Translations under genes and position numbers: made by a program
Assembly (NCBI GenBank): GCA_026419115.1
Contig: JAOAAA010000030.1
Location: 1 to 33,955 of the forward strand
From: Gemmataceae bacterium
GTDB lineage: Bacteria > Planctomycetota > Planctomycetia > Gemmatales > Gemmataceae
Reading direction: 5' to 3'
DNA length: 33,955 nt
Notes under the pieces: generated by a model
The model's input: the letters and a program-made list of their open reading frames with translations, nothing else
The model's database searches: none
Told to the model about the DNA's origin: nothing
Shown: positions 22,670-26,209 of the stretch, piece after piece
How the letters are laid out: each line of letters opens with the position of its first letter
Numbering within the stretch: position 1 is the first letter of the stretch

Positions 22670-23779
22670 TTATCGAGGCAAACCGGTGTAGTCCTCGGGA
22701 TAGACCACATCAACCGGACTGGGGGCATAAGTGAATTTCTCGACATCTTCCGGTAGGGGGCGTGGCTCTTCCATGGCTTGCACGACCGCCGCATCGGCTT
22801 CTTCATGGGCGTTTTGGTAAATGTGTTCCACCAATTCTTGGTGTAACAAGCCGGCGTTGATCAGTTTGGTCTCGAACAGTTTCAGGCAATCCGGCTCATC
22901 CGAGACCCGAGCTGCTCCGCTCGAAGAACTGTGGCCATGCAAGCGAGAGACAAACACTTCGAGCAGATAAGGCTTGCGGGTTTGTCGGCAGTACTCCAGC
23001 CCCCGTCGAATCGCGTGCCATGTGGTAATCGGATCGTTCCCATCCACTGTTTCCCCCGGAATGCCAAAGGGTTCTCCCCGATCGCAAATCCGGCGTTCTC
23101 CATGTTGCGTGTGGGCAGGAGTCGAGATACCGTAACCGTTATTGGTCACAATCATAAGAACCGGAAGTTCGTTCTTCGGTCGTGTGGACCAGATCATACA
23201 GGAGGTAAAATCACCTTCAGCAGTTCCTGCATCCCCCCCCACGACAATCGACACACCCGTTCCATTCGGCACTCGCTTTTGCATGATGGCCGTGCCCGGT
23301 GCCATGACATATTGAATCTCAATCACGCTGGTCACGGGGACAACATTCCACTCTTTGACGGCATAATGCCCAACGAAGTTGCGTCCCCGCGAGTGCGGGT
23401 CAGTCGCGGTCATGGCCATTTGCCGGACATGGTCAAGCATTGGCATTCCAAGAGCCAACAGCACGCCGGCGTTCCGATAGTGCAGGTGGAGATAATCGTA
23501 AGCAGGGCCGAAGCCTTTGTTGACCTGCAGCCCCAAGCACACGTTGAAGGCCTCTTCTCCAGGGCCACCGACCCAGAAATACCCTTCTCCCGATTTGGAC
23601 ATTTTGATCGTCCGCTCTTCTAAGGCACGAGTGCGGACCATCAACCGGAAAATTTCAAGACAGCGTTCCGCCGGCAACGATTCAACGCCGCTGAAAATTT
23701 CACGCCCCATTCGGGTTGCGCTCGGGTTGTTTGCGAGGGAATCCTCGGAATCGTCCAAAGGAAATAGAGGGGACGTCAT
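22670..23779 (-). CDS. 2-oxoacid dehydrogenase E1 component, alpha subunit
   Basis: 369 residues. The start at ATG 23779 is fixed by AAGGAGG (23787-23793) seven bases upstream. The ThDP/Mg motif GGDAGTAEGDF (181-191) ends with NN at 214-215, as expected for the GDG-X(n)-NN pattern with Ala for the second position (GDA). It also has LEERTIKMSKSGEGYFWVGG, a substrate-channel His in HLHYRN (about 99-104) and the flexible loop LHGHSSSSGAARVSDEPDC holding the phosphorylation-loop serines of BCKDH/PDH. Forms an alpha2-beta2 tetramer with the beta subunit encoded directly downstream. A promoter candidate lies about 165 bp upstream (23944-23973). Assigning it as pyruvate or branched-chain specific needs phylogeny. 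Confidence 0.93.
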   Translation of the reverse strand: MTSPLFPLDDSEDSLANNPSATRMGREIFSGVESLPAERCLEIFRLMVRTRALEERTIKMSKSGEGYFWVGGPGEEAFNVCLGLQVNKGFGPAYDYLHLHYRNAGVLLALGMPMLDHVRQMAMTATDPHSRGRNFVGHYAVKEWNVVPVTSVIEIQYVMAPGTAIMQKRVPNGTGVSIVVGGDAGTAEGDFTSCMIWSTRPKNELPVLMIVTNNGYGISTPAHTQHGERRICDRGEPFGIPGETVDGNDPITTWHAIRRGLEYCRQTRKPYLLEVFVSRLHGHSSSSGAARVSDEPDCLKLFETKLINAGLLHQELVEHIYQNAHEEADAAVVQAMEEPRPLPEDVEKFTYAPSPVDVVYPEDYTGLPR

Positions 23780-23793
23780 CACCAACCCTCCTT

Positions 23794-24137
23794 TTTAGGG
23801 GTCATAATCCCACCCGTTTTAGGAACCCAAACGAGTCGGAACAAAACGGAGGCAACCACTAATATAGGAAGAAGAGGGGGGATAGGGAATTAGTGTGTTG
23901 TCGTTCTCCGTTTCTTTTTTGGTTGAGAAAACTCTTTATTCTCATTATACTCGACCATTTGGAGAAATAACAACTCCTTTGTTGCCATAAAAAACGGAAA
24001 CTTCTGGATGAGAGGATCGAATTTTTGGATTGGTCCAAGGGGGAGTGAGCTAAAAGTATAGATTCATGAAAACCACACTAGATAATTTTTTCACTTCGGC
24101 TGCGGGACCACTCGCTCGCACTATCTCGTAAACCATT
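23794..24137. other. Leader region of the E1 operon
   Basis: No gene supported. It contains the promoter candidate at 23944-23973. A 32-codon minus-strand frame (23890-23988), ending in PKKKRRTTTH, overlaps this promoter and has no ribosome-binding site, so I do not call it. The rest, up to the broken zinc-ribbon gene, has no clear structure. Confidence 0.5.
23944..23973 (-). promoter_or_regulatory. Predicted promoter for the E1 alpha/beta operon
   Basis: On the minus strand TTGTTA (23968-23973), an 18-bp spacer and a perfect TATAAT (23944-23949). Transcription would start near 23937 and leave an untranslated leader of about 158 nt before the E1 alpha ATG. Such a long leader could hold control elements, but none is evident. 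Confidence 0.55.
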
Positions 24138-24316
24138 TAGCGTTTCTGTTCCATATGCCCAAAGGCACACTGACTACATTTGAAGCCACCGTTGCTGTAA
24201 GGACCTTTATGACTACTTAAGCACTGGGGACAGACTCGAAAACCACACTTATTGCAAACAAACCAGTTCTAGTTGATAGGAAGTGGATTGCGACAGGATT
24301 GACAAGGAATATTCAT
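24138..24316 (-). pseudogene. Small zinc-ribbon protein gene, broken by a stop and a frameshift
   Basis: Read from ATG 24316, the frame gives MNIPCQSCRNPLPIN, then an in-frame TAG (24269-24271), then NWFVCNKCGFRVCPQCLSSH and KGPYSNGG. Around 24179-24183 one base is missing; restoring it gives FKCSQCAFGHMEQKR and a TAA at 24138-24140. The repaired protein would have 59 residues with four CxxC pairs (positions 5/8, 21/24, 29/32, 47/50), that is two zinc ribbons. The strict spacing of four CxxC motifs cannot easily arise by chance, so this is a real but decayed gene, invisible to ordinary ORF calling. The TAG probably replaced a Tyr codon. The function is unknown; nucleic-acid or protein binding is usual for such ribbons. 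Confidence 0.8.
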
Positions 24317-24604
24317 GTGAGAACCCCAAATGCGACTCGATTGCGAGAGCAAGTACGAGACGAATTTTTTCAGATTAACCCAAACAGCAGAACAACACAA
24401 CGAAAAAACAACGCTTCATCTTTCATGTTTGGCTTTAGGTTCATGCGGTGCGGTCGATTTGCTTGTCAAAGTGATTGGAGCACGATAGGCTAAATTTATC
24501 TCTTTCATAATTTTTGCCTAATGTCTCCCAATCTCACTCAGGGGGATATGGCAAATTCAAACGCACGCTCACAGAAAGCGTGTTTATTTCCCAAGGTGAT
24601 GTTT

Positions 24605-26209
24605 ATGTTCGCTCGACATTTCCAAGTTCACTCATCGGCGTGGTTGGTGTTGCTGATTGTAACGCTGTCCACTCAAGCTCAAACCCCCAAAGATTCTCCT
24701 ATCCCCGAGAAGGTGCTTAGTGCTTGGAAAGGTGCGGGAGCTACCTTCGGCTGGCAAGGATGGGATCAGTTCGGCACACTGAAATTTCAGGAATCAAAGG
24801 AAGGGCTGCGGGATGCGTTGCCAGCATTTCGGTTTCGCGAGTGGAATGCGGCTAATACGTCGAAGGTCAGGGAGTTGCCCGATGTGGGGGTCCCCTTTGG
24901 ATTGAACGTGAGCTACACCCGAATAACGGATGCAGGATTGAAGGAATTAGCTGGACTAAAAAATCTCACTTCGCTTTCTCTCGGCGGCCCCCAAGTGACG
25001 GATGCGGTAGTAAAGGAACTGGCCGGTTTGAAAAGCCTCACTTCGCTCGACTTGTGGAACACTCAAGTGACCGATGAGGGACTGAAGGAATTGGCCGGTT
25101 TGAAAAGCCTCACTTCGCTCGACTTGTGGAACACTCAAGTGACCGATGAGGGACTGAAGGAACTGGCTAGTCTGAAAAACCTCACTTCGCTCTACCTCGG
25201 CAAGACCCAAGTAACGGATGCAGGACTGAAGGAACTGGTCAGGTTGAAAAACCTCACTTCGCTCTACCTCGGCAAGACCCAAGTGACGGATACGGGATTG
25301 AAGGAACTGGCCGAGCTAAAAAAACTCACCTCACTCTACTTGAACGAGACCAAAGTGACCGGTGTCGGATTGAAGGAATTAGCTGGACTAAAAAATCTCA
25401 CTTCGCTCAACTTGAGCTATACCCTCATGACGGATGCGGGATTGAAGGAACTAGCTAGTCTGAAAAACCTCACCAAACTCTCCTTGAACGAGACCGAAGT
25501 GACCGGTGTGGGACTGAAGGAACTGGCTGGGCTGAAAAACCTCACAACGCTCGACCTAACCAAGACTCAAGTGACGGATGAGGGACTGAAGGAGCTAGCC
25601 GAGCTGAAAAACCTTACCAAACTCACTCTGTATGGCACTCGAATCACGGATGCAGGCTTGAAGGAATTGGCGGGATTGAAAAAACTCACTTCGCTCAACT
25701 TGTGGAACACCGAAGTCACCGATGAGGGATTGAAGGAATTGGCTGGGCTGAAAAACCTTACCAAACTCACTCTGTATGGCACTCGAATCACGGATGCAGG
25801 ATTGAAGGAACTGGCTGGATTGAAAAAACTGACCTTGATCGACCTGTCTGACCGCCAAATCACGGATCGTGCTTTAGCGATGTTGCGGGAAGTTGATTTG
25901 CTGCATGCTTTGGACCGGACCACGGGAATTGGCAATCAACGGCCTATGAAAGCCGAGGATGTTATCTCGCTCGATCTAAGGAGCACTGAGGTATCGGACT
26001 CGGGATTGAAGGAATTAGCTGGACTAAAAAATCTCACGTCGCTCAACTTGAGCTATACCCTCGTGACGGATGCAGGCTTGAAGGAACTGGCTGGATTGAA
26101 AAACCTCACGACGCTCGATCTGAGCGACACCCAAGTAACAGACGAAGGACTGAAGGAACTGCAAAAGGCGTTGCCCAAATGTCGAATTATTCGAGAATTC
26201 CGCCGTTGA
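24605..26209 (+). CDS. Exported leucine-rich-repeat protein
   Basis: About 534 residues. ATG 24605 is preferred: AAGGTG lies six bases upstream and the result is a normal Sec signal (FARHFQVHSSAWLVLLIVTL then STQAQ). In-frame ATGs at 24599 and 24548 and the frame start at 24521 give an overlong N-terminus. After a roughly 106-residue lead-in the protein is an array of 24-residue LRRs with consensus VTDAGLKELAGLKNLTSLDL plus four residues: 13 in a row, one irregular 44-residue segment, then three more, the last degenerate as a C-terminal cap. Thr/Asp caps and LKxL spacing fit the bacterial ITDAGL-type LRR common in planctomycetes. It should form a curved solenoid outside the cytoplasm for protein or glycan binding. 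No enzymatic domain is present. Confidence 0.92.
   Translation: MFARHFQVHSSAWLVLLIVTLSTQAQTPKDSPIPEKVLSAWKGAGATFGWQGWDQFGTLKFQESKEGLRDALPAFRFREWNAANTSKVRELPDVGVPFGLNVSYTRITDAGLKELAGLKNLTSLSLGGPQVTDAVVKELAGLKSLTSLDLWNTQVTDEGLKELAGLKSLTSLDLWNTQVTDEGLKELASLKNLTSLYLGKTQVTDAGLKELVRLKNLTSLYLGKTQVTDTGLKELAELKKLTSLYLNETKVTGVGLKELAGLKNLTSLNLSYTLMTDAGLKELASLKNLTKLSLNETEVTGVGLKELAGLKNLTTLDLTKTQVTDEGLKELAELKNLTKLTLYGTRITDAGLKELAGLKKLTSLNLWNTEVTDEGLKELAGLKNLTKLTLYGTRITDAGLKELAGLKKLTLIDLSDRQITDRALAMLREVDLLHALDRTTGIGNQRPMKAEDVISLDLRSTEVSDSGLKELAGLKNLTSLNLSYTLVTDAGLKELAGLKNLTTLDLSDTQVTDEGLKELQKALPKCRIIREFRR
24923..26206 (+). repeat. Tandem 72-bp repeats encoding the LRR array
   Basis: Thirteen uninterrupted 72-bp units (24923-25858), a 132-bp irregular unit (25859-25990) and three more units. 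Units 2 and 3 are almost identical at the DNA level, and a block covering units 10-11 is repeated by units 12-13 with few changes. This pattern points to recent duplication within the gene. Confidence 0.9.

Follow-up and report, generated by a model that had tools for sequence, protein, structure and literature searches.

The B-box, ZZ and RING domains have been grouped as binuclear treble clefs of the RING-like kind (Kaur and Subramanian, 2015; PMC4506424), and in-frame stop codons in bacterial genes are described as mostly short-lived, on a polymorphism timescale, in genes that keep dN/dS below 1 (Belinky et al., 2021; PMC7918605). By the pattern outlined in the latter paper, a short-lived or tolerated stop is therefore a known kind of event. 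The gene described here touches on both subjects. It belongs to a family that has in common with the binuclear RING-like fingers (RING, ZZ, FYVE, C1 and PHD) an eight-ligand CX2C/CX2C/CX2C/CX2C layout, but differs from them in that its members are stand-alone bacterial proteins of 57 residues whose profile and fold matches are weak. With the cases of Belinky et al. (2021) it shares one TAG within a frame that is otherwise under constraint, whereas the large-scale set of that study, as outlined there, consists of stops common to at least two species and the TAG here occurs in one genome. We consider it likely that this stretch, which lies in 33,955 nucleotides of DNA from a Gemmataceae bacterium (the window, meaning the whole stretch that was analysed), represents a rare and unnamed bacterial finger family, and that this copy was probably received horizontally, underwent a single recent nonsense change and is most likely inactive. 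The gene and its surroundings comprise the following features:

24137..24316, minus strand: zinc-finger reading frame, 59 codons plus the terminal TAA (from translation and homologues)
24269..24271, minus strand: in-frame TAG, codon 16 (from translation and alignment)
24293..24304, minus strand: first CxxC pair, residues 5 and 8, preceding the TAG (invariant in 23 rows)
24245..24256, minus strand: second CxxC pair, residues 21 and 24 (from translation and alignment)
24221..24232, minus strand: third CxxC pair, residues 29 and 32 (from translation and alignment)
24167..24178, minus strand: fourth CxxC pair, residues 47 and 50, sharing the frame of the other three (from translation and alignment)
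22670..23785, minus strand: dehydrogenase E1 alpha-type subunit (E1_dh), the downstream neighbour (Pfam PF00676)
24521..26209, plus strand: leucine-rich-repeat (LRR) protein, the divergent upstream neighbour (Pfam LRR_4, LRR_6 and LRR_8)

Translation of the minus strand from the ATG at 24316-24314 to the TAA at 24139-24137 yields one continuous frame of 60 codons, or 180 bases, and the gene thus carries one lesion and not two. The preliminary description had placed a one-base deletion near 24180, in addition to the stop. That deletion is absent, since all eight cysteines lie in a single frame; the span given at the time, 24138-24316, is 179 bases, one too few for whole codons, and the idea may have come from this. 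The central observation of a hidden, stop-bearing zinc-finger gene is borne out by the four CxxC pairs, the TAG and the homologues. As an observation it is partly confirmed: a real gene, with one stop and no deletion. In the draft assembly the TAG is the single internal stop of the 59-codon frame. The cysteines of the window copy are spaced CX2C-12-CX2C-4-CX2C-14-CX2C, and a loose form of the four-CxxC layout was matched at one place in the real window, against no match in 300 windows simulated with a Markov-1 model. A promoter and terminator scan of 23780-24620 gave values close to those of shuffled sequences, with nothing that would indicate the finger gene, and a permissive Rfam search of the gene yielded matches that all fell far short of the gathering scores. 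An RNA element was ruled out as the identity of the stretch, with no Rfam family above its gathering score.

The preliminary description had regarded the gene as doubtful should homologues be lacking, and this doubt is answered by relatives encoded at 26 loci in genome contigs (near full length at 25), which were found by tblastn with the window protein carrying an X at the stop. The candidates have E values from 4e-24 to 4e-4, and the relatives are 53-78% identical to the window protein. Their hosts are Bacteroidales and other Bacteroidota, members of the Myxococcota/“delta” group, the beta-proteobacteria Limnohabitans and Methylobacillus, one member of the Ignavibacteria and one of the Planctomycetaceae (locus L018). 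We aligned the window copy with 22 of the 26 loci, leaving out the near-duplicates L032 and L037, the stop-bearing L041 and the partial L042. Nineteen columns are invariant in the 23 rows, among them the cysteines at positions 5, 8, 21, 24, 29, 32, 47 and 50 and a histidine, and the window copy, itself one of the rows, keeps all 19. It likewise has every family feature in the residues themselves (the eight cysteines, R27, H36 and the C-terminal KCSQCAFG), within the general motif IPCQxC ... CDKCGYRVCPxC ... KCSQCAFG of a stand-alone protein of about 57 residues, and the family profile recovers it at E 8.6e-32, the window copy being one of the 23 rows from which the profile was built. The one family feature that it lacks is an uninterrupted reading frame; because of the TAG at codon 16 we classify it as a stop-bearing copy and not as an intact member.

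In the 22 other aligned members the column of the TAG holds W (11), F (4), S (3), N (2), T (1) and L (1), and it is therefore not a metal ligand; judged by the alignment, codon 16 is a tolerant, mostly aromatic position. An internal stop is absent from 24 of the 25 near-full-length homologous loci. The exception is the Ignavibacteria locus L041 (positions 25-216), in which an in-frame TAG follows directly after the first cysteine codon, at a different codon from that in the window. This match comes within about 25 bases of one end of its contig (4,926 bases), and the TAG of L041 could therefore also be an error. Compared over 51 codons with the planctomycete relative L018, the window copy has 19 identical, 19 synonymous and 13 non-synonymous codons (the TAG among the 13), and third positions hold 28 of the 44 base differences. 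This excess at third positions indicates that the lineage has long been under selection at the protein level. A short, stop-bearing frame can thus still be a recognizable gene, and this one leads to a small, conserved family of fingers with no match above a cut-off in scans of Pfam, NCBIfam, PHROGs and PADLOC; in NCBIfam and PHROGs no match came close to a cut-off or had an E value below 0.02, and PADLOC gave nothing for the L018 copy. In keyword searches of the literature, which included the combination of ZZ domain and radical SAM, no paper was recognized as naming the family.

Which kind of finger the family represents was approached through profiles and a predicted fold. The ligand spacings of FYVE and RING domains serve as the standard of comparison. 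Eight ligands in four pairs, with a spacing compatible with the cross-brace of a binuclear RING-like treble clef, are present in all 23 rows. With the window protein as query, no Pfam profile scored above its cut-off, C1_2 coming to 21.5 bits against a cut-off of 26; among the 23 members, matches at E 0.01 or better were to C1_2 in 18 (best 3.6e-5), FYVE in three and zf-C3HC4 in two. The profile matches are weak and for the most part to fingers of the binuclear treble-clef type. CxxC pairs are common to this family and the zinc-ribbon proteins, but the zinc-ribbon profiles Zn_Ribbon_TF (14.3 bits) and Zn_ribbon_IS1595 (13.2 bits) remained far under their cut-offs and scored lower than C1_2 against the window query. 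The family profile matched 17 PDB sequences at E values from 0.0026 to 1, including FYVE, RING and PHD-type domains and also classical zinc-finger chains and unrelated ones. An AlphaFold2 model built from the alignment, with the TAG of the window row read as W, reached a pLDDT of 84. The top Foldseek rows for this model were ZZ, PHD and RING domains at a weak E of 0.25 or worse, the best VIA-align match was the Slx1 RING (Z 5.4, rmsd 2.4 over 55 aligned residues), and the fold searches leave RING-, ZZ- and PHD-like folds undistinguished. Because of the ligand spacing, the weak C1, FYVE and RING profile matches and the predicted fold, we favor a RING-like two-zinc treble clef over the double zinc ribbon, the matches being too weak for a firm assignment. 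The zinc finger of the preliminary description thus stands and the double ribbon is the less favored form, spacing and modeled fold pointing, short of proof, to a binuclear treble clef of the RING/ZZ/FYVE type. The family as a whole probably adopts this predicted fold and would bind two zinc ions.

The distribution of the family is patchy. The own genome holds one copy, the other three matches being at chance level, and a second intact copy, which the preliminary description had proposed to look for in the same genome, was not found, these matches having E values of only 0.2-1. A search of 58 further genomes belonging to its family, order and class did not recover the gene. A survey of 392 planctomycete genomes gave matches at E 0.01 or better in 13, the own genome included, and besides the own copy only those in G095 and G196 are convincing (about 7e-14); with the family profile, five of the 392 were recovered at 1e-3, two of them weakly. 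One of 345 Bacteroidota genomes carried the gene, namely the center genome of that survey, which had been picked because it carries it. Seven genomes of homologous loci that were checked have one copy each. From the patchy distribution we infer horizontal spread. In a tree of 24 short rows (57-60 residues) the window copy groups weakly with Limnohabitans and Methylobacillus (87/82, under the starred level). Patchiness and this poorly supported tree suggest that the window gene is probably a horizontally acquired orphan.

According to the reading that we prefer, this planctomycete would have received the finger gene horizontally, without the radical-SAM and SelO-like partners that are often found beside the Bacteroidales relatives, and the gene would have come to lie between the dehydrogenase E1 gene and the LRR gene. 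A single nonsense change would then have created the TAG at codon 16, such that translation would end after 15 residues and keep only the first CxxC pair. Loss of function is most likely on the evidence of the sequence, because translation would stop this early and no in-frame ATG, GTG or TTG follows until codon 55. The disabling TAG and the intact homologues elsewhere (24 of the 25 near-full-length loci) are what is expected of a pseudogene. The inactivation appears recent because every other conserved residue is kept, and the very recent inactivation suggested in the preliminary description remains the most likely reading; its interpretation overall is partly supported. The 19 unchanged invariant residues amount to 46.7 non-synonymous site equivalents, which limits neutral change since inactivation to at most about 0.064 per site (95%, simple Poisson). 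Counting against a recent loss, the conservation of all other invariant residues would also fit a working gene that has a sequencing error or is read through, and a further member with a TAG, L041, would be somewhat unexpected were stops rare. One such alternative is that the TAG arose as an error of base calling or assembly, or else is a minority variant that entered the consensus, and that the gene is intact in the organism. A single codon is the sole lesion, the assembly is a draft in 323 contigs and the stop in L041 sits close to a contig end, all of which would fit; but there is no positive sign of error, the neighboring genes in the window being long, intact frames with family matches, and we consider this explanation unlikely.

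Very unlikely, in our judgment, is that the TAG is read through by a near-cognate or suppressor tRNA, so that little full-length finger is made and the stop tunes expression. All conserved residues downstream of the TAG are kept, and the column is no ligand and tolerates six different residues, such that many inserted residues would serve. TAG is also the rarest terminal stop among the 17 main ORFs of the window (895-33847; TAA 11, TGA 5, TAG 1), two family members bear an in-frame TAG, and stop-bearing genes under constraint have a precedent (Belinky et al., 2021). However, the two TAGs are at different codons and each occurs in one sequence only, no known RNA family was found at the site above its Rfam gathering score, and the release factor RF1 (prfA) is present above the cut-off in the own genome; the genomes that carry L017, L018 and L041 have RF1 as well. 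Furthermore, no tRNA with a CTA anticodon is included in the ARAGORN list from the fetched stretches of the own genome, a list that is incomplete, with several expected tRNAs missing, because the draft is 92% complete and in 323 contigs. The same genome has at C310 (L089:2016-3192) a tight array of nine tRNA genes, including the only tRNA-Trp that was seen (84 bases); it lies beside long, chromosomal-looking ORFs, and its phage matches are only single and tRNA-sized. The patchy distribution would also suit a finger copy that is the decayed cargo of an insertion or a phage and not a chromosomal gene. We regard this as extremely unlikely, as the plasmid and phage collections gave no finger match and the viral contigs gave one weak, partial match with the single-protein query and none with the profile.

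In the window, the finger gene lies alone between the E1-alpha gene and the divergent LRR gene, without partners of the Bacteroidales type. Among 22 E1-alpha loci of relatives, neither the finger gene nor the LRR gene was found in the flanks at E 0.01, some of these flanks being short, and a search of the own genome for a SelO-like homolog, made without a positive control, gave none at E 0.1. Within the LRR gene, nearly identical tandem DNA units are visible by eye at 24956-25200, which suggests a recent expansion of repeats.

The stop-bearing window copy is by itself ordinary, and the wider interest lies in the Bacteroidales neighborhood of the intact family, with genes for a radical-SAM/SPASM enzyme, a SelO-like kinase, Sel1-repeat proteins and a Ser/Thr kinase. 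A radical-SAM/SPASM protein of one sequence cluster is encoded in the fetched flanks of 10 of the 26 loci, all in Bacteroidota and within about 4 kb (L019, L021, L022, L025, L028, L032, L033, L037, L038 and L040). Most members of this subfamily have an N-terminal motif around RPEWTCGRY. The protein of L019, the sole one compared with Pfam, matched Radical_SAM (E 1.7e-14) and SPASM (E 1.6e-7); no NCBIfam cut-off was reached among the matches listed, and a query with the N-terminal part found nothing in 395 genomes in a search without a positive control, an outcome that carries no weight. Near the finger in six of the 26 loci (L025, L028, L032, L037, L038 and L040) is a protein of about 282 residues with the motif LHNAIHxQNYTWALELLDFEL. 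The L032 copy has no Pfam or NCBIfam match, and the best nine matches of a low-confidence model (pLDDT 55) were eight SelO/YdiU proteins and one uncharacterized protein, at E 7.7e-4 to 8.6e-3. The neighbor counts are descriptive, because the Bacteroidales loci are related to one another and contig ends truncate several of the flanks.

These neighborhoods suggest that the members of the finger family probably serve as adaptors that bind proteins, perhaps within a pathway of modification. Alternatively, the finger may itself be the substrate of the neighboring radical-SAM enzyme; the radical-SAM protein of one conflict system has been proposed, as presented by Kaur et al. (2020; PMC7159879), to modify a small stand-alone peptide. 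A bolder proposal, which we judge highly unlikely as a whole, would have read-through of the TAG act as a valve for low-level expression, in the window copy and in the distant L041, whose frames are otherwise well conserved and have one TAG each, at columns that are not ligands; separately, the intact family would perhaps be an adaptor in an undescribed Bacteroidales system with the radical-SAM/SPASM enzyme and a SelO-like, AMP-transferring pseudokinase. Further neighbors are Sel1-repeat proteins (L021 and L030), a Ser/Thr kinase (L025) and an AAA ATPase (L026), and at the Planctomycetaceae locus L018 a radical-SAM gene is located about 2.5 kb downstream of the finger gene.
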